A DNA stretch of 64,000 nucleotides, from the NCBI RefSeq assembly GCF_900091455.1, contig NZ_LT607412.1, forward strand, positions 5,084,001 to 5,148,000. Reading direction: 5' to 3'. A program made the translations under genes and the position numbers. The stretch comes from Micromonospora coriariae (GTDB lineage Bacteria; Actinomycetota; Actinomycetes; Mycobacteriales; Micromonosporaceae). Under the pieces are notes generated by a model. The model was not told the origin of the DNA. It saw only the letters and a list, made by a program, of their open reading frames with translations, and did not search any database. This document shows positions 49,135 through 57,180 of the stretch, one piece after another. Every line of letters begins with the position of its first letter. The stretch's first letter is position 1.

Positions 49135-50436
49135 CTACCTCCGGGGGCGGAAATAGTGCCGGACCGCGTAACGGTAGACCTCCTCACCGAGTTTCGCTCC
49201 CTCGACGTCAGCGGTGCGGAAGTGGACGCCGCCCCAGACGCGCGCGCCGATGAGCTCGTTGAGCGCTTGCGAAAAGCTGGTGAATTGCCTGGTCGTGCCG
49301 GAGTCGACGCTGGATCCGCTGAACGCGATGTCGTCTCGGCCAAAGAAGTGCCGATACAGCGACATCCGCGCACCGGTGCCGCAGGCGTGGCCGGAGGGGT
49401 ACTCGGGGAAGGGGGGCGTGACGAGCAACGACTGCCAGCCTGGGTCGGCGGTCGTCTTCGGGTTGCCGTCCGTGTCGGCCAGTTGGATCGCGGTGACCGG
49501 ACGCCAGTAGCTCCAGAAGTCCTTCTGGCTGAAGCACGACACGCCCGAGTCGGCCACGATGAGGTCGGTCATCGCGAAGAATCGCGCGGTCTGCAGGGCG
49601 TCCAGCCGTTGGGTGGTGGCGAGCTGGCGCTTGATCTCCCAGGAGGCGGAACGCCGGTCGTGCCACCACATCGCGGCCTCTGTCTGGTCCTGGGTCCGCA
49701 CGGTGCTCGTCGCCGAGCCGACTTCCTTCACCTCGTTGAGATCGCGGGTGTACGCGCTGCTGGTCAATCGTGGCGGCGCGGGGGTGCGGAACGTCGACGC
49801 GCGGGGGATGAGGAACGGCCGCATGTGTCCGGTCCATGCGCCCTGGGACAGGAACAGCGGCGGCGTGGGTCGCCACTGGCCGGGCCTTGTCCCGGGCGTC
49901 CACTGCTGGTCCCCGAACGCGCCGTCGTCCTGCCGCGCGGTGACCATCGCGGCCGCGGCTCGTGCCCCGATCGTGATTCCGCCCCGCTTCGACCGCCCGT
50001 CGGGAACTGCGACGAGAGCCGCGTCGTACTGTGCCCGAAGCCGCTCCTGCTGATCGGGGAAGAGGGCGGCGAGTACGTCGTGGGCGGCGGCGGCGACGGC
50101 GGCGTCCGCCGATTCGGTCCCGCTCGACGGCGGTGCGGCAAGGTACGGCTGGTACGGGGTACCGGCGATCGCGTTCAGCGCGTCGTAGACGGCTCCGCTC
50201 ACCATTGCGAAGCTGCGCACCTGCTCGTTCGGTTGCTGAGCCGCGACGTCCCAGATCGCCGTCTGGGCGTTGAGGTCCCATGTGATCACCGGATTGGCAG
50301 GGCGGGGGCCGGAGATCGCGGCTGCGGCGTAGGGCGCCGGCCCGGTCATCGTGGACGCGACAAGCGATCCCAGGGCGATGGTTGCGGGAATGATGCGTGA
50401 CCAGATGGCACGGCGTGTCTGGTTGCGGCTCGTCAT
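49135..50436 (-). CDS. Secreted PAP2/vanadium-haloperoxidase superfamily protein
   Basis: This 433-residue protein has a basic signal peptide (MTSRNQTRRAIWSR then a hydrophobic stretch to AAA at about residue 40). The domain has VSGAVYDALNAI, WSYWRPVTAIQ and the phosphate/vanadate site PEYPSGHACG followed by GGVHFRTADVEGA, corresponding to motifs P2 and P3 of the PAP2 superfamily (SGH and HxxxD-like). It belongs with secreted vanadium-dependent haloperoxidase-like phosphatases. GGGGAGAT lies just before the ATG. Confidence 0.85.
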   Translation of the reverse strand: MTSRNQTRRAIWSRIIPATIALGSLVASTMTGPAPYAAAAISGPRPANPVITWDLNAQTAIWDVAAQQPNEQVRSFAMVSGAVYDALNAIAGTPYQPYLAAPPSSGTESADAAVAAAAHDVLAALFPDQQERLRAQYDAALVAVPDGRSKRGGITIGARAAAAMVTARQDDGAFGDQQWTPGTRPGQWRPTPPLFLSQGAWTGHMRPFLIPRASTFRTPAPPRLTSSAYTRDLNEVKEVGSATSTVRTQDQTEAAMWWHDRRSASWEIKRQLATTQRLDALQTARFFAMTDLIVADSGVSCFSQKDFWSYWRPVTAIQLADTDGNPKTTADPGWQSLLVTPPFPEYPSGHACGTGARMSLYRHFFGRDDIAFSGSSVDSGTTRQFTSFSQALNELIGARVWGGVHFRTADVEGAKLGEEVYRYAVRHYFRPRR

Positions 50437-50725
50437 GATCTCCCCGTCGGTAGGTTGTCGATGCTGGCTGCCGGACGCACGCGGCGTACGAGGTGGAATC
50501 GATGACAGTCGAACATAGCATCGTGAAGCCTCGATGAATGGCGTTCCGGCCCGGGGATCCGGCTTCGCCCCGGCCCGATTCCCGGGGTTACCGCCTCGCG
50601 CCCCGGTCACCTCGGCCCTGTCATCCGACTCGCCTCCGACCGGCGGGTCGCGCCGGCACGTGCCGCTGCCACGAGCGCGCCGCCCGCCGCGGATCCGCGG
50701 CGGGCGGCGCAGTTGGCGCGTGAGG

Positions 50726-51652
50726 TCAGGAAACGGTCACGTCGCGGTAGTAGTAGCGCAGAATCGCCTGGTAGTTCTTGCCCGCGTTCGCGAGATCACG
50801 CGAGCCGTACTGCGACATCCAGTCCCCGTCCACCCAGCCACCGCACGCGGTCGTGGTCGCACAGTAGTGCGCCTGCAGGATGTTGCCGCTGCGGGTCATC
50901 CGGGTCGACCAGGTGCTGTCGACCGCGGAGGACGTCGACGCCTGCGCCGACGACGGCCGGTAGACCTGGTCGCCGGTGTCGTCACGGACGTCGTAGCACT
51001 GCCCGCCGGAGGTCTTCCGGGTCGAGTGCAGCGCCCAGTACCAGCCGTAGCTCTTGACGGCTACGGCACCGGCCTCCAGCGAAGCGTTCGGCCAGCTCGT
51101 CACCCACTCGTTCGGGAGGACGTTCTTGACGTACGTCTTGAAGTCGACCCGGTCGACTCGCCCGAGACTCACCCGGTAGACCAGGATTGTGCTCGGCAGT
51201 TTGCTGTTGGTGCCGTCGGTGCTGCAGCCCGTCGGCCCGCTCAGCAGTTCGTGCGAGGCGTTGTTGTTCTTCAACGTGGCGTTGAGGTTGCCCTTCGCCC
51301 CGGCCGCGAAGTCCTGGCTCGCACCGGCGAAGTTGCTGTTGAAGTAGACCCGCACGGTCTTGCTGGTGCGGTTCCACACCGACGCGGCGTTGTTCTTCAC
51401 GCACAGGCCCTTGCCGTTGCCCGCGCCCTTGAAGTCGTAGCAGGACGGCTGGGTCGTGCCGTAGTCGTCCAGCGAGTCGGTGAAGTCCGAGACCGAGCCG
51501 GCCTGGTTGCTGTTGTAGTAGTAGCAGAACTCGCCGCTGTCGCAGCCCCCGTCGCGGTCGGCGGCGGACGCCGCGCCCGGCGCCACCGCGACGCCGACGA
51601 GCACCGCCACCAGGACTGCCAGAACGCCCGGAACTCCTTTCAGGGTGGTCAT
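50726..51652 (-). CDS. Secreted protein: I36 inhibitor domain fused to SpoIID/LytB domain
   Basis: This 308-residue exported protein has a signal peptide to about residue 29, an I36-type beta/gamma-crystallin-like domain (about 32-135: CDSGEFCYYYNSN, SCYDFKGAGNG, KGNLNATLKNNNASH) and a SpoIID domain (about 150-305) with VLPNEWVTSWPNASLEAGAVAVKSY, including the catalytic-type Glu of SpoIID lytic transglycosylases. SpoIID cleaves denuded glycan in sporulating bacteria; actinobacterial homologues remodel wall. The I36 part is 88% identical by eye to that of the neighbour, with different C-terminal halves. Confidence 0.85.
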   Translation of the reverse strand: MTTLKGVPGVLAVLVAVLVGVAVAPGAASAADRDGGCDSGEFCYYYNSNQAGSVSDFTDSLDDYGTTQPSCYDFKGAGNGKGLCVKNNAASVWNRTSKTVRVYFNSNFAGASQDFAAGAKGNLNATLKNNNASHELLSGPTGCSTDGTNSKLPSTILVYRVSLGRVDRVDFKTYVKNVLPNEWVTSWPNASLEAGAVAVKSYGWYWALHSTRKTSGGQCYDVRDDTGDQVYRPSSAQASTSSAVDSTWSTRMTRSGNILQAHYCATTTACGGWVDGDWMSQYGSRDLANAGKNYQAILRYYYRDVTVS

Positions 51653-51723
51653 CGGCGACCGCCGGTCACGAGCGGGTACTGAAATCTGGCTGGCGCGCTG
51701 ATCAGGTACGAGCGCATGCCGGG

Positions 51724-52500
51724 TCACCAGCCGCTCGGAACGTAGGCCCAGCCCAGGTAGTCGGACCGGTCCCGGAACGTGCTGGTCTGGTAGACGGTCG
51801 GCCCGGTGCTGATGGCGCTGTTGCCGCCGATGGAGAGCATGACGTGCCCGGCCGACGTGGTGGACGTGAAGAACACAGCCGTTCCGGCGGGCGGCACCGA
51901 GCCGGTGTGAATGCGTCCGTTGTCCTTCTGCCACTGGTAGTGCGTGCGGGCCGTGGCGAACCGGCCGCTGGTGCCGAACGCCCGCTCGACGAACAGCTCG
52001 CACTCGTTGTTCCAGTCGGTGTGCCCGAGCCGCGCCTTCGCGAATGCGACGGCCTCGGCGGCGCGCGGGTCGGCCGGGTTGGTGGTGGCACCGCCGATGT
52101 CATGCGAGGCGTTGTTGTTCTTCAGCGTGGCGTTGAGGTTGCCCTTCGCCCCGGCCGCGAACGACTGGCTCGCTCCGCCGAAGTTGCTGTTGAAGTAGAC
52201 CTTCACGGTCTTGCTGGTGCGGTTCCACACCGACGCGGCGTTGTTCTTCACGCACAGGCCCTGGCCGTTACCCGCGCCCTTGAACTCGTAGCAGGACGGC
52301 TGGGTCGTGCCGTAGTCGTCGATCGATCCGGTGAAGTCGGAGATCGAGCCGGCCTCGTTGCTGTTGTAGTAGTAGCAGAACTCGCCGCTGTCGCACACCC
52401 CGTCCCGGGACGCCGCCGACGCCGGCGATGCGACGGTCAGGATGGAGGTGGTCATGGCGAGCGCGGCGCCGGCGACGGCGAGACTCTTTCGGATGTTCAT
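51724..52500 (-). CDS. Secreted protein: I36 inhibitor domain fused to a CHAP-like domain
   Basis: This 258-residue exported protein has a signal peptide (VAGAALAMTTSILTVASPASAA), the same I36 module as its neighbour (13 differences in 106 residues), then a ~110-residue domain with AKARLGHTDWNNECELFVE and AGHVMLSIGGN. The Cys and His in these motifs, and the closing WAYVP, fit an NlpC/P60 or CHAP cysteine peptidase/amidase. It probably cuts peptidoglycan peptides outside the cell. A pairing of inhibitor-like module with a hydrolase is seen in both copies. Confidence 0.83.
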   Translation of the reverse strand: MNIRKSLAVAGAALAMTTSILTVASPASAASRDGVCDSGEFCYYYNSNEAGSISDFTGSIDDYGTTQPSCYEFKGAGNGQGLCVKNNAASVWNRTSKTVKVYFNSNFGGASQSFAAGAKGNLNATLKNNNASHDIGGATTNPADPRAAEAVAFAKARLGHTDWNNECELFVERAFGTSGRFATARTHYQWQKDNGRIHTGSVPPAGTAVFFTSTTSAGHVMLSIGGNSAISTGPTVYQTSTFRDRSDYLGWAYVPSGW

Positions 52501-52552
52501 GGTGTCCTTTCGTGAACGGTGAGCGATGGATGGTGGATCGGTCGGGTGCGGG

Positions 52553-53416
52553 TCACTGCCCGCGCTGGTACTGCTCCCAGGTTCTGATCGGAATCCGGGG
52601 GCCGTCGTCCGGGCCGTGGTTGGCCAGGCCGTTCATGCCGAGGTAGTAGTCGCCTGTCTGGTTCTGCGCCTGGCTGGACAGGTCCGTGTCGTTGATCGCC
52701 GCCGCGTGGATGTGCCACGGCCAGTCGCCCTGGTCGGGATCACGGATCCAGGCGGCGAAGCCGACCTGGCGCAGAGCCCGGACGACGGCGGTGCGCTTGG
52801 CCGCGGTCATGCCGGTGACCGCGATGTCCACCACACCCCCGCCGTCGTGCGTACCGGCCGAGGTCGGGTCGCCCCCGGGGTTGTACGAGCCCTGCGCCAG
52901 CACCAGGGTGTGACCGAGCAGACGCTGGGCTTCGGCCAGCATCGCCTGCGTACGGGCGTCGACGACGTACCCGTCCCGCTGGACCTTCGCGCCCGGGCCG
53001 ATCGTGTTGCCGACTGTGTAGCGGTTCTGTCCGAGCTTCGTCAGCGACGTCGTGCCCGGCAGCCCGTTCGCGGCCAGACCGGTGTAGCCGAGCGAGCGCT
53101 GGTAGGCGGCGTACGCCGAGATGGTCTCGGTGCCGAAGTAGCCGTCGACCCACTGCCCGTTGAGCAGGTTCCGCGCCTGGAGCGCCTGCTCGACGGCGAG
53201 TACGGAACTCTTCGCGCCCGGGGTCAGTGTGTGGTCGGCACGGCGGGGGTCGATCTGGGCGGCCAGGACGGTGGCCTCCATGTCCACGGCGGGCAGTGCC
53301 GCAGTGGTTGCGGTGCGCTGCGCTGTGGCACCGGGTGCCGCGGCCCACGCGTGGGCCGGGACGCTGACGGCCACGCAGAGCGCGGCGAGCCCGACGGCTA
53401 ACCGGGGACGGCGCAT
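52553..53416 (-). CDS. Peptidoglycan-binding and M15-like peptidase domain protein
   Basis: This 287-residue exported protein has a signal peptide, a helical peptidoglycan-binding_1 segment (about 65-125: SSVLAVEQALQARNLLNGQWVDGYFG) and a C-terminal M15-type domain with GTHDGGGVVDIAV (metal His and Asp) and WPWHIHAA (second metal site). These are the zinc ligands of VanY/DD-carboxypeptidase-like enzymes. Four TGTCAG-core motifs lie in its upstream region. Together with the two I36 proteins it makes a wall-active cluster. Confidence 0.87.
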   Translation of the reverse strand: MRRPRLAVGLAALCVAVSVPAHAWAAAPGATAQRTATTAALPAVDMEATVLAAQIDPRRADHTLTPGAKSSVLAVEQALQARNLLNGQWVDGYFGTETISAYAAYQRSLGYTGLAANGLPGTTSLTKLGQNRYTVGNTIGPGAKVQRDGYVVDARTQAMLAEAQRLLGHTLVLAQGSYNPGGDPTSAGTHDGGGVVDIAVTGMTAAKRTAVVRALRQVGFAAWIRDPDQGDWPWHIHAAAINDTDLSSQAQNQTGDYYLGMNGLANHGPDDGPRIPIRTWEQYQRGQ

Positions 53417-53504
53417 GGTCGGTCCTCCTCGTAGGTGGTGAGTCACGTTCGGAACGGACATCACCCTGCGAGAAGGGCCGTGCTGTTCGGTACCCCCGCT
53501 GTCC

Positions 53505-53599
53505 TGTCAGATCTATCAGGCCGTCAACGACCTCGATGAACACGGTGTTGTCAGATCGGGTGGCACAGCAGGTCTGACATGGAGCGCTCACGCCTGACA
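53505..53599. promoter_or_regulatory. Cluster of TGTCAG-core motifs upstream of the M15-like gene
   Basis: TGTCAGATC at 53505-53513 and again at 53549-53557, TCTGACA at 53573-53579 (reverse TGTCAGA) and CTGACA at 53594-53599 (reverse TGTCAG). They sit in the upstream region of the M15-like gene. The same core occurs twice more before the HTH gene, at 54694 and 54717. Confidence 0.5.
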
Positions 53600-53636
53600 C
53601 CCGTGGGGCGACCCACGACCCGGTCGTCGGACCTGC

Positions 53637-54683
53637 TCAGGCGGTGACGGTCACCATGAAGTACACCGGTCGGCGGCTGGGAAAGTAGGCCCGCCCGTGC
53701 TCGTCGACCATCTTCCAGCTGACCCAGCATTTCCCGGGGCGGTTCGGCGCGGTGACCGCGACACTGATCATCACCTGCTCGCCGGGCGGCGTGTCGCCGA
53801 TCGGCACGCGATCCGGCACCTGGCAACCGTCATCGTCAGCGGTGGGGTTTATCCGCGCCAGGAAGCGGTTGTGCCAGTCGACCGATCCCGCGTTCATGAG
53901 CGCCCACACCTTCACGAAGTGGGCGTTAACCTTCACCTGCGTACCGTCGGGAATGGTGACGTCGGCGACGAACTGGCTCGAGTCCCCGGGAATCATCGCG
54001 TCCGAGAACCCTGCCGTTGTCGGTGGCGCCGCCACGGCGCCGGAGTCGTCCACTGACGACCGGCCGCGGATGGTGACGCCCAGGACAGCGACCATCGCCG
54101 CCACCGCCACCACCGCGGCGGCGGCGAGCCACGGCGACCGATGCCGTCGCGCGCCCGTGACCTCGTCCTCCGCCGTCGCCGGTGTCCGCTCGGGCGCCCG
54201 CAGCGCGCGCTGGCCCCGCGGCACGAGATCCGAAGAGGCGGCGACGCGAGACACGAGGGACTGACCGGCCGCCGGAGTGTCCACGGCGTCATACGTCCCG
54301 GCGGCCACGACGGGGGTCCTCGCGGCCTGCATGGTGGCGCGACCATCGTCCCCGGCCGGGGAACCGGTGTTGACCGTCGCCGGGTCGCCGTCCGCGGCAG
54401 CGTGGCCCGCCCCCCGGCGCTGAGCGTCCTCCCATCCGCGCCGCCACTGAACCTCGTCCGCCTCGCACGCCCGGACGAACTCGCGCGTGGTCTCCCACGA
54501 GGGGAACCTGGTCCCGGCGGCAGCCTCGTGCAGCGTCGTGTGCGAGATCCGGCCCGACCGCCCGGCCATCTTCCGGAATGACGGGTTGCCCGCGGCGGCC
54601 CGCAGCTTCCGCAACTGTTCGGCGAATCTCTCGGTGGCCGTGCCGTCTTGAACCGACTCGACGGCAGCACGCTGGTCGTCCAT
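53637..54683 (-). CDS. Membrane-anchored HTH regulator with extracellular NBR1/Ig-like domain
   Basis: This 348-residue protein has an N-terminal helix-turn-helix (about residues 17-75: FAEQLRKLRAAAGNPSFRKM, then RISHTTLHEAAAG), a disordered linker, one TM helix (about 183-204: WLAAAAVVAVAAMVAVLGV) and a C-terminal ~120-residue domain with VKVWALMNAGSVDWHNRF and CWVSWKMVDEHGRAYF, matching the NBR1-type Ig-like domain of actinobacterial XRE-TM proteins. It thus links an outside domain to DNA binding. Two TGTCAGA copies precede its start, suggesting autoregulation. Confidence 0.85.
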   Translation of the reverse strand: MDDQRAAVESVQDGTATERFAEQLRKLRAAAGNPSFRKMAGRSGRISHTTLHEAAAGTRFPSWETTREFVRACEADEVQWRRGWEDAQRRGAGHAAADGDPATVNTGSPAGDDGRATMQAARTPVVAAGTYDAVDTPAAGQSLVSRVAASSDLVPRGQRALRAPERTPATAEDEVTGARRHRSPWLAAAAVVAVAAMVAVLGVTIRGRSSVDDSGAVAAPPTTAGFSDAMIPGDSSQFVADVTIPDGTQVKVNAHFVKVWALMNAGSVDWHNRFLARINPTADDDGCQVPDRVPIGDTPPGEQVMISVAVTAPNRPGKCWVSWKMVDEHGRAYFPSRRPVYFMVTVTA

Positions 54684-54693
54684 CTATCCCCAA

Positions 54694-54723
54694 TGTCAGA
54701 CGTCGTCGTCAGGCGTTGTCAGA
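54694..54723. promoter_or_regulatory. Two TGTCAGA copies before the HTH gene
   Basis: TGTCAGA occurs at 54694-54700 and 54717-54723, 23 bp apart start to start, in the upstream region of the HTH gene. The same heptamer clusters upstream of the M15-like gene. Confidence 0.5.
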
Positions 54724-54843
54724 GCGTGTAAGAGGGTACCGAACGGGCCTGGCGCGGCCATCATCGTGATCGATGACGACACATGGCACGACGGATCCGG
54801 GGTATTGACGGAAATCACCGATGACGGGGGACGGTGTGTGGGT

Positions 54844-55509
54844 TCAGCGGCGTGGCCGCACCAGCCCGGCGTCGAACGCCGCGATCACCAACTGCGCCCG
54901 ATCTCGTACGGCCAGCTTCGCCAACAGGTGCGTGATGTGCGTCTTCACCGTCTTCACCGAGATCACCAGGGCGGTCGCGATCTCGTCGTTCGACAGGCCG
55001 CCGCCGATCAGCGTGAGCACCTCGACCTCACGGTCGGTCAGCCGCCGCAGTGCCGACATCGGCCGGCCCGGGCTGGGGGCCGCGACGTAGTGCGCGACGA
55101 GCCGGGTGAGGATCGACGGCGCGAACAGCGATTCACCGCGGTGGGTGCGCCGGATCGCGTCGAGCAGTTCCTCGGGGCGGGCGTCCTTGAGCAGAAAGCC
55201 GGACGCTCCCGCGTGCAGCGCCTCGTACACGTACTCGTCGAGTTCGAACATGCTCAGGACCAGGACGCGCGCGGCGGACAGTGCCGGGTCGGTGCAGATG
55301 CGGCGGGTGGCCTTGAGTCCGTCGAGGTGCGGCATCCGTACGTCCATCAGGATGACGTCGGGGCGGCTGGTGCGGGCGTGCGCCACCGCGTGCGCGCCGT
55401 CGCCAGCCTCGCCGACGACGGTCAGGTCCGGCTCGTTGTTGATGATCATGGCGAGGCTGTGTCGGAGCAGCGCCTGGTCGTCTACCAGCAGCACGCGGAC
55501 GTCGCTCAC
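54844..55509 (-). CDS. NarL/FixJ-type response regulator (cassette B)
   Basis: This 221-residue regulator has receiver residues in VRVLLVDDQALLR, phospho-acceptor Asp in VILMDVRMPHLDG, Lys in GFLLKDARPEE and the LuxR-type helix-turn-helix (LTDREVEVLTLIGGGLSNDE, TVKTHITHLLAKL). The GTG start overlaps the kinase stop by 4 nt. It is the likely regulator of the divergent ABC operon at 56467-58564, mirroring cassette A. Confidence 0.92.
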   Translation of the reverse strand: MSDVRVLLVDDQALLRHSLAMIINNEPDLTVVGEAGDGAHAVAHARTSRPDVILMDVRMPHLDGLKATRRICTDPALSAARVLVLSMFELDEYVYEALHAGASGFLLKDARPEELLDAIRRTHRGESLFAPSILTRLVAHYVAAPSPGRPMSALRRLTDREVEVLTLIGGGLSNDEIATALVISVKTVKTHITHLLAKLAVRDRAQLVIAAFDAGLVRPRR

Positions 55510-56354
55510 GCTGTCCCGTCCCAGATCCGTGCGGTGATGCGGAATCCTCCGTCGACGTGCTCCGCCGACAGCGTGCCGCCGAGGCTGTCGATCCGCTCCC
55601 GCAACCCGGCCAGCCCGTGTCCGGCGCCCGGCGATGCCAGCCATCCGTCGACTGACGGGCCGGCGTCCGCGACCGTGACCACCACGTGAGTTCCGTCCCG
55701 ATACACCCCCACCCGCACGTCCGTCGGTCCCGCGTACCGTGCCGCGTTGCTGAGCGCCTCCCGCACGGTCCTGCAGACCGCGACCTGTACACCCTCCGAT
55801 ACCGAACCGAGCGGCTCGACCGTCAGCCGTGTCCGAAGCCCCGCGAGCGATGCCCCGTGCACGATGCCGGGCAAGTCGTCGAGATTGTCCACCGGGGCAC
55901 GGCGGCTGGCGGCCGACGGCTCACGCAGGACTGTCAGCATGCGGCGTAACTCGGCCGTCGCACGCCGGCTCGCGTCCTCGATGTCGGTGAGCGCCGTCTG
56001 CACCTCGGCAGGCTTGGGTAGATGCCGGGTGGCCGCCGCGCGGACCGTGATCAGGCCCAAGCCGTGCGAGACGATGTCGTGCAGGTCGCGAGCGATCCGC
56101 AGCCGCTCGGCGAGCACCGCCTCGGACGCGGCCCAGGCGGTCAGCCGGGACTCGTAGGCGGTTCGGTCGGTGCGTGACCGCCGCACCGCCCAGACCGCGG
56201 CCGCGACAGCGCCGCCGACTATCAGCGGCGGCAGTACGACCGCGAGCGGGCCCTGCGCGCCGACCGTACACATGGCCATCACCAGCACACTGATCACCAC
56301 GGCGGCAACCGGCACGGTCCTGGACCGCCCGGAGGGGTGCGGATGGGCGTTCAC
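55506..56354 (-). CDS. Sensor histidine kinase, HisKA_3 type (cassette B)
   Basis: This 282-residue kinase is small: two TM helices (about 16-34 and 40-60), then RIARDLHDIVSHGLGLITVR with the phospho-acceptor His, a shortened HATPase region with REALSNAARYAG (N box) and ADAGPSVDG...GHGLAGLRERIDSLGG. I start at the GTG coding VNAHPHP; the open frame upstream is antisense to the exporter promoter. It has no sensory extracellular domain, so it may sense its exporter or the membrane. Confidence 0.9.
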   Translation of the reverse strand: MNAHPHPSGRSRTVPVAAVVISVLVMAMCTVGAQGPLAVVLPPLIVGGAVAAAVWAVRRSRTDRTAYESRLTAWAASEAVLAERLRIARDLHDIVSHGLGLITVRAAATRHLPKPAEVQTALTDIEDASRRATAELRRMLTVLREPSAASRRAPVDNLDDLPGIVHGASLAGLRTRLTVEPLGSVSEGVQVAVCRTVREALSNAARYAGPTDVRVGVYRDGTHVVVTVADAGPSVDGWLASPGAGHGLAGLRERIDSLGGTLSAEHVDGGFRITARIWDGTA

Positions 56355-56371
56355 CAGCCCGACTGTAGTTC

Positions 56372-56387
56372 TCAGACCAGGGTCTGA
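56372..56387. promoter_or_regulatory. Palindrome in divergent promoter region (cassette B)
   Basis: TCAGACC-AG-GGTCTGA is a 7-bp perfect inverted repeat around two bases. It lies in the 112-bp gap between the kinase and ABC ATPase genes. A second repeat, GGTCC-GT-GGACC, follows at 56389-56400. It is a plausible response-regulator operator. Confidence 0.5.
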
Positions 56388-56466
56388 CGGTCCGTGGACC
56401 GACCCGGCCGTCAAGATCGGAGAACGGTCGGATGTACGAGAGCCGGAAGACCGGTTGACTCGGCTT

Positions 56467-57180
56467 ATGATCACGATCGATCGCGTCAGCAAAACCAAGG
56501 CTGGGACGCGGATCCTGTACGACGTCAGCTTCGAGGCCCGGCCCGGCCGGGTCACCGGCTTCCTCGGGCCGAACGGAGCCGGCAAGACGTCGACGCTCCG
56601 TATCCTGCTCGGCCTGGACCGTCCGCAGGGTGGTGCGGCGCTGGTGTGCGGGCGACCGTACCGGAGACTGACCCGTCCGTTGATGACGGTGGGCGCGCTG
56701 CTCGACGGCAGCGGCGCGCACCGGGCCCGTACGGCGCACGCTCACCTGCGTTGGGTGGCCGCCAGCAACGGACTGCCGGACTCCCGCGTCGACGAGGTTC
56801 TCGAGATCGTGGGCCTGACGGGCGACGCGCGGAAGCGTGCCGGCCACTTCTCGCTCGGGATGAGCCGCCGGCTCGGGCTCGCCACCGCGCTGCTCGGTGA
56901 TCCTGAGGTGCTGGTCCTGGACGAGCCGGTCAACGGCCTCGACCCGGCCGGGATCCGCTGGATGCGCGAGTTCCTCAGGGCCAGCGCGGCGGAGGGCTGC
57001 ACGGTCCTGCTCTCCAGCCACCTGATGGGCGAATTGGCCGAGACCGCCGACGACATCATTGTGATCGACAAGGGCCGGGTCGTGATCCAAGGCGGACTCG
57101 CCGATGTCACCGGCGGTCATCGCACGCTCGAGGACGCCTTCTTGGCGCTGACCGCCGCCAAGGCGGGTGGATCATGGTGA
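56467..57180 (+). CDS. ABC transporter ATP-binding protein (cassette B)
   Basis: This 237-residue ATPase has Walker A GPNGAGKTST, signature FSLGMSRRLG, Walker B VLVLDEPVNGLD and switch SSHLMGEL. It shares with the cassette A ATPase the segments GRPYRRLTRPL and LGLD, but lacks its C-terminal domain and ends right after the NBD. The ATG has no good Shine-Dalgarno; an open frame upstream covers the kinase antisense only. It overlaps the next permease by 7 nt. Confidence 0.92.
   Translation: MITIDRVSKTKAGTRILYDVSFEARPGRVTGFLGPNGAGKTSTLRILLGLDRPQGGAALVCGRPYRRLTRPLMTVGALLDGSGAHRARTAHAHLRWVAASNGLPDSRVDEVLEIVGLTGDARKRAGHFSLGMSRRLGLATALLGDPEVLVLDEPVNGLDPAGIRWMREFLRASAAEGCTVLLSSHLMGELAETADDIIVIDKGRVVIQGGLADVTGGHRTLEDAFLALTAAKAGGSW

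Follow-up and report, generated by a model that had tools for sequence, protein, structure and literature searches.

A putative peptidoglycan-degrading gene cassette of Micromonospora coriariae associated with its own membrane-spanning XRE-FW regulator

The 64-kb window analyzed here, bases 5,084,001-5,148,000 of the 6.93-Mb single-contig genome of Micromonospora coriariae, contains a block of four minus-strand genes at positions 54683-50726, named D, C, B and A in their order of transcription (Table 1). Judging from sequence, D-C-B-A appears on balance to be an accessory cassette of secreted peptidoglycan-degrading enzymes placed under a dedicated membrane-spanning XRE-FW regulator; the I36 domain carried by two of the enzymes would act as a shared targeting module. 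Comparative genomics supports inheritance of the four genes as a single unit and an association between the type of helix-turn-helix (HTH) domain found in D and CTGACA repeats. The original prediction had placed secreted wall enzymes and a trans-envelope regulator in these four genes; the genes and their positions were confirmed, their domains were identified with Pfam, and A, B and C do look like such enzymes. The closest named homologues of the block proteins are Micromonospora proteins.

The coherence of the block emerged from a comparison of its own genome with 60 relatives, 36 belonging to the genus and 24 to other families. Eight of the 37 genus genomes have strong matches to A, B, C and D, in each case adjacent and in unchanged order, and no complete set was seen in the other 53 genomes of the comparison. 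Because the four homologues co-occur in this manner, the block is not a product of chance, and the syntenic unit originally proposed holds: its genes are neither scattered nor independently present in relatives. Within the family, a search of 300 drawn genomes for the FW domain gave 60 matches in 58 genomes. Fifty plus five of these matches and three further carriers from the relatives made up 58 FW loci; the matches left out comprised two under the family cut-off and three at 5.7e-9 to 2.3e-8. Since the first locus of G106 has no FW gene in the gene calls, 57 FW loci were examined. The FW gene is followed by a same-strand operon running through SpoIID in 38 of them, where B is an I36-M23 protein in 21, an I36-NlpC protein in 14 and present in both forms in one, one operon being devoid of C and another of both C and B. 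Eleven of the other 19 FW loci lie beside two small secreted proteins, and the rest have mixed neighbours, which include opposite-strand I36 or NlpC-like genes (G106b, G069, G120, G212) and an I36 pair upstream (G080).

Named genomes were also scanned with an alignment of A. The best 80 of 180 confirmed stretches represent 79 distinct loci, among which 66 encode I36 together with SpoIID. In 54 of these 66 loci an FW gene lies up to 4.5 kb upstream or up to 3 kb downstream, directly beside the operon in 52 and with one gene between in two. Its placement is upstream on the same strand (24 loci), downstream on the opposite strand (25) or downstream on the same strand (5); the FW partner is thus retained despite changed placement. 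Among the remaining I36-SpoIID loci, five have a related HTH gene without FW and seven have neither, although one of the seven (L242) does have such a regulator, shortened by the gene caller. The named-locus counts and those obtained under the G handles must not be added, because some of the genomes are the same. Outside the family, the operon or parts of it were encountered in Phycicoccus and in a Micrococcales metagenome-assembled genome (MAG), and in part in Janibacter.

The regulatory link between D and the enzymes is suggested by a short repeated word. TCTGACA occurs five times in the window, for a chance mean of 4.76, and all five copies fall within the gaps of 160 and 220 bp that flank D, where they are positionally conserved across the eight genus carriers. 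The start of D could be refined in 35 of the 38 family operons. CTGACA lies at most 150 bp upstream of the refined start in 35/35 (two or more copies in 30/35), and the D-C gap holds a site in either orientation in 35/35, two or more in 34 and the exact 44-bp forward pair in 30; the three operons with unrefined D starts also carry sites. In the named loci with a forward C gene, scanned from -350 to +60 of C, CTGACA precedes C in 49/51 loci with FW and 3/20 without FW, compared with 32/516 upstream regions of other genes and 245/3950 random windows, and a 43-45-bp CTGACA pair occurs in 20/51, 0/20, 0/516 and 27/3950, respectively. The positive FW loci are spread over Micromonospora (14/14), Nonomuraea (10/10), Actinomadura (15/17), Actinoplanes (5/5), Asanoa (2/2), Streptosporangium (2/2) and Phycicoccus (1/1). 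Fisher values for the CTGACA-before-C contrasts (1.7e-11 and 2.5e-46) are overstated because the loci are related. A quick tree built from 75 concatenations of C and SpoIID, I36 excluded, in which 27 of 72 inner branches are weak, has CTGACA before C in 63 of 65 rows with FW and three of ten without. A scan for sigma-70 promoters found none.

Several lines of evidence bear on which protein reads these sites. The wording ISHT is present in the HTH of 37 of the 38 operon-linked D proteins, G287b being the exception. FW paralogues that have the ISHT wording next to other neighbours (G120, G150, G136) are preceded by two to three CTGACA words within 150 bp. The 11 FW genes without ISHT, six of which read PSY...AAASKSSLAA and five of which have no match to the HTH pattern, have no CTGACA within 400 bp in seven cases and one in four. 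A spaced pair, CTGAN{4,8}TCTGACA, was also searched in 14 whole genomes (eight carriers and six non-carriers) with the reversed pattern as control. In all eight carriers the spaced pair matches within the block, to which 21 of their 33 genome-wide matches belong by manual tally; the carriers' other 12 matches resemble the control (11), and the six non-carriers have 14 for a control of 11. From these observations we infer that the HTH of D is the likeliest reader. The predicted wall module with a trans-envelope regulator is supported by the genomic evidence, and control of the enzymes by D is probable in view of the CTGACA arrays.

Apart from the block, four CTGACA words with spacings of 11, 23 and 11 precede a 791-amino-acid (aa) open reading frame (ORF), penicillin acylase-like by eye, at G000:C1:6752040-6752090 (L194). 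No tie to D was found for this array at 6.75 Mb. A similar array exists in G034:C3 (L207), with no acylase in the 3-kb stretch, and another in G030:C33. No wider CTGACA regulon emerged, the other genomic arrays adjoining unrelated genes.

D has the N-terminal XRE-type HTH and, near its C-terminus, the FW domain with four tryptophans (W260, W270, W320, W323) that define XRE-FW proteins, as well as an extra cysteine pair (C287/C319). Among the operon-linked D proteins, W260, W270, C287 and C319 are kept in 38/38, W320 in 35/38 and W323 in 37/38. In a PDB search the Ig domain of D matched FW domain structures from ILRUN (2.4e-4) and NBR1 (6.3e-3). Bacterial XRE-FW proteins, including those of actinobacteria, were named by Marchbank et al. 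(2012; PMC3357945), who proposed that FW mediates dimerization or binds a small signalling molecule; they are also treated in PMC9582228, and a 2022 paper calls the function of FW enigmatic (PMC9233695). D shares the HTH + FW architecture of the proteins in these three papers. As described there, XRE-FW proteins are given no target, operator or role, whereas D adds a conserved partner operon, a candidate DNA word and a transmembrane segment between HTH and FW.

Other relatives of D were noticed along the way. Related HTH-transmembrane regulators near the CHAP-type operon (L239, L242, L243, L245, L248, L249, L294) have another ectodomain in place of FW; an impression that it is SH3-like received no support from family and PDB searches. 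The 11 FW loci beside two small secreted proteins of ~115-153 aa (L142-L149, L153, L156, L171) form a second FW-regulator subclass without the ISHT wording. These small proteins are reminiscent of the spore-associated protein SapA; two of them had no match in NCBIfam.

The genes C, B and A encode predicted enzymes, each with a signal-peptide-like N-terminus and no visible anchor by inspection. The probable starts of A (51652) and C (53416) are internal to longer ORFs, and gaps of 52 and 71 bp separate the members of C-B-A, which are probably co-transcribed. The PDB matches of A comprise SpoIID structures (4RWR at 9.2e-11, also 5I1T and 5TXU) and SleC (9H68 at 3e-9), and its E182 aligns with E101 of Clostridioides difficile SpoIID, described as the catalytic glutamate (PMC6221140). 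It scores 80.8 bits with TIGR02669, slightly below the cut-off of 83.3, and 46.4 bits with the sporulation SpoIID equivalog TIGR02870, for which the cut-off is 234.75. A structure model of A from a 14-sequence alignment (mean predicted local distance difference test, pLDDT, 40.7; predicted template modelling score, pTM, 0.38) was not used.

B is an I36 fusion, as had been predicted; its catalytic part is better read as NlpC/P60-like than as the CHAP-like domain first assigned, because CHAP scores only 0.016. Its NlpC/P60 match reaches 22.1 bits for a Pfam gathering cut-off of 23.0, with the Cys and His invariant in seven aligned proteins, and none of its PDB matches is significant (Spr/MepS at E 0.28 and 0.44, LytE at 0.15). 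C gave no match to the Pfam M15 profile, and its assignment comes from the H-x6-D...H motif, whose residues H190, D197, H235 and H237 are invariant in 19 aligned homologues. Family scans of C yielded PG_bind_siph (8.9e-6) and spore_SleB (5.1e-5), both far below cut-off. Its best PDB match, 1LBU, covers the peptidoglycan-binding part only and is not significant (E 0.6); 1LBU is a Streptomyces albus Zn peptidase with a peptidoglycan-binding plus M15 arrangement, to which C is similar by motif. A match of C to GMP synthase (0.038) was judged to be chance. A structure model of C from the 19-sequence alignment has a mean pLDDT of 68.3 and a pTM of 0.63, with the motif loop 179-193 below 50. Candidate catalytic residues are thus conserved in all three proteins, whose activities are predicted.

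Table 1. Features of the D-C-B-A block and its surroundings (window positions; values in parentheses are from Pfam).
Feature	Positions	Strand	Content
Gene D	53637-54683	minus	XRE-type HTH_31, residues 19-81 (6.2e-7); linker; one transmembrane segment ~183-207 (by inspection); FW/NBR1-Ig domain N_BRCA1_IG, PF16158, residues 243-335, predicted extracellular (8.9e-16)
Gene C	52553-53416	minus	Signal peptide (by inspection); PG_binding_1-like region (0.004, below cut-off); M15-like zinc peptidase motif H190-x6-D197 ... H235-I-H237
Gene B	51724-52500	minus	Signal peptide (by inspection); I36 module (2.3e-12); NlpC/P60-like domain with C167 and H219 (1.6e-4)
Gene A	50726-51652	minus	Signal peptide (by inspection); Inhibitor_I36 module (5.2e-12); SpoIID domain (9.3e-13)
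Region upstream of D	54684-54740	minus	TCTGACA at 54723-54717 and 54700-54694, further degenerate copies lying ahead of and between these; candidate autoregulatory operator
D-C gap	53417-53636	minus	Two forward TCTGACA words 44 bp apart (53555-53549, 53511-53505) and an inverted one (53573-53579); candidate C-B-A operator/promoter region
PAP2/vanadium-chloroperoxidase-like gene	49135-50610	minus	Downstream of the block
Two-component pair	54844-56585	minus	LuxR-type response regulator and HisKA_3 kinase, upstream of D; adjoining ORFs look ABC transporter-like (by eye)

The I36 module is common to B and A. It is fused to SpoIID and to domains of the NlpC/P60, CHAP and two M23 types: in B, the catalytic part behind it is NlpC/P60-like here, M23 in G002 (6.1e-11) and CHAP in L239 (4e-16), and a second type of M23 (1.1e-24) stands behind I36 in L304, a locus without SpoIID. 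In 32 loci caught by a sequence pattern, the I36 modules of A and B from the same locus are 85.8% identical on average and those of A from different genera 84.1%, the within-locus value being higher in 17/32. Concerted evolution of the two copies is clear in some loci only, such as G011, where they share 99.3% DNA identity. G011 also has a solitary gene combining I36 with a CHAP-like domain (CHAP by eye) away from the block (L109, 4127-5080). In a PDB search, a match of I36 to superoxide dismutase (0.013) was judged to be chance.

The exchange behind I36 can be followed on the tree, where the label of B requires 11 changes over all states; M23 scored alone requires eight, four of them forced by starred branches. 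M23 and NlpC genes stand side by side in Micromonospora arborensis (L272, of the G247 type), an arrangement that is a possible intermediate in the swap; the second locus labelled with both forms (L241) apparently owes this to another I36 gene elsewhere in the locus. FW is present in 64 of the 65 rows with M23, NlpC or both. The single row with the second type of M23 (L278) has no FW, nor do any of the eight CHAP rows, which fall in two groups only; two CHAP loci outside the tree set (L281, L285) have FW.

These elements can be assembled into a proposed mechanism. D would reside in the membrane with its cytoplasmic HTH bound to the CTGACA repeats that precede C and, in the arrangement of the Micromonosporaceae, also to those preceding its own gene. 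Its extracellular FW domain would read a signal derived from the wall or from a secreted protein and alter transcription of C-B-A. The products would be freely exported: C as an M15-like carboxy- or endopeptidase, B as an NlpC/P60-, M23- or CHAP-type enzyme and A as a SpoIID-type lytic transglycosylase. The I36 modules of B and A would carry these different cutters to one common target and, since I36 would set that target, the cutter of B could be swapped to fit the wall chemistry.

Parts of this scheme have known counterparts. A has the SpoIID-type domain and catalytic Glu of the SpoIID/SpoIIP/SpoIIM engulfment machine and of SleC in Firmicutes but differs from these in being secreted without a visible anchor, fused to I36, associated with its own XRE-FW regulator and found in actinomycetes. 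Lysostaphin-type modular secreted lysins combine an exchangeable catalytic domain with a wall-targeting domain. The block resembles them in joining exchangeable catalytic domains to what would be a targeting domain, and is unlike them in that I36 would do the targeting, several cutters per operon share the module, and a dedicated trans-membrane regulator is present. Among the papers listed by searches of an open-access library, which lacks most subscription journals, none dealt with I36-SpoIID proteins, with a hydrolase operon regulated by FW or with the present combination of genes. New here are the candidate operator, the catalytic exchange of B behind a conserved I36, and the patchy distribution. 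When XRE-FW proteins were named in 2012 their role was left open, and one such regulator now gains a partner operon, a candidate operator and a proposed class of ligand. If different wall cutters are indeed exchanged on a shared module, nature would also offer a design worth considering for antibacterial enzymes. A bolder extension is given here with little confidence: the bacterial FW could be an extracellular receptor for peptidoglycan fragments or I36 enzymes, coupled through the membrane to an operator-specific HTH, and cargo binding by NBR1 could be a later use of a fold with this ancestral task. I36 would then be a wall-targeting domain with cartridge-like exchange of cutters, most CHAP-type loci differing in regulator ectodomain too.

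A number of points weigh against the proposed cassette, starting with its operator. Kinship inflates the counts and may underlie the association between FW and CTGACA: on the tree, the presence of FW differs within no more than three supported independent pairs, a number too small for testing. Two of the 49 positives (L257, L266) have their site more than 330 bp upstream of C and look like chance. Autoregulation is not general, as only 19 of 44 FW+HTH genes of the named set, all in Micromonosporaceae, have CTGACA before themselves. The FW gene of G287b (L191, the second G287 locus) seemingly has no HTH yet heads a full C-B-A operon, and the ISHT-type FW gene of G080 has a single site ~200 bp upstream, three CTGACA sites preceding the I36 operon (L285) of that genome. 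Neither case fits D as the reader well. Together with the three sites before C in loci without FW, and with related CTGACA arrays of ~11-bp period that occur elsewhere, also in genomes without the block, they would suit a reading of the arrays by another regulator, for instance another XRE or a SARP protein, with D as a mere neighbour. This is nevertheless very unlikely, as CTGACA before C tracks the FW gene even when D lies on the other side of the operon, and, where FW genes have other neighbours, tracks the wording of the HTH. As for the ectodomain of D, FW may serve dimerization instead of sensing. On the side of the enzymes, SpoIID acts on glycans already stripped by an amidase (PMC6221140), an enzyme that neither the NlpC nor the M23 forms obviously supply. 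The targeting role of I36 is one that we infer, and no I36 protein was matched in the PDB search with this module. Its Pfam family is named a peptidase inhibitor, the founding member being a Streptomyces metalloprotease inhibitor, and I36 precedes M23 metallopeptidases in many loci; it might thus protect or restrain the attached enzyme. The "inhibitor-like" module first described is indeed an I36 domain, but inhibition is unlikely to be its sole role since the partners of I36 also include the non-peptidase SpoIID, as well as NlpC and CHAP domains of the cysteine type. Moreover, the two copies of a locus are close to each other, and between genera I36 is better conserved (84.0%) than the SpoIID domain (78.8%). 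The inhibitor explanation is accordingly held improbable, and a shared targeting module appears to fit better.

Judging from distribution, the target itself is most likely the wall outside the producer, belonging to neighbours or dead cells, and less likely the producer's own; no immunity gene was recognised in the block, and no search was made for one elsewhere. One alternative is that D senses damage to the producer's own peptidoglycan and tunes the hydrolases in an envelope-stress or wall-turnover response. D is anchored in the producer's membrane, from which it extends a short way into the wall, and one-component control of hydrolases would fit such a response; on the other hand, inspection shows no anchor on the enzymes, the cassette is accessory, and the repeated change of B's catalytic part is not obviously favoured by own-wall maintenance, which leaves this view rather doubtful. 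The sporulation or germination module of the original prediction, in which the set would remodel the producer's own wall, fares worse and seems highly improbable. In Firmicutes, SpoIID and SleC act on the spore wall, the peptidoglycan-binding part of C weakly matches SleB, and many carriers are actinomycetes known to sporulate. Sporulation is a genus-wide trait in Micromonospora, however, whereas so few of its genomes carry the set, and Phycicoccus and Janibacter, where the operon or parts of it recur, are not known to sporulate. Furthermore, A falls far under the sporulation SpoIID equivalog score, and neither SpoIIP nor SpoIIM was found among the eight window proteins scanned, no search having been made elsewhere.

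The surroundings of the block point to an accessory nature. The flanking PAP2-like gene is present (E <= 1e-60) in six of the 60 relatives, none of them a carrier; five are non-carriers of the genus, and 0/7 other carriers have it. The sizes of the flanking genes vary between carrier groups as well. The block can be read as a cassette that changed place, without proof of transfer. Finally, a secreted protein of ~138 aa with a GCGKNY motif, a motif not found in the 64-kb window, is encoded divergently beside D in many Micromonospora loci (L106, L108, L154 and others), and also before C in some CHAP-type loci (L252, L291, L300).

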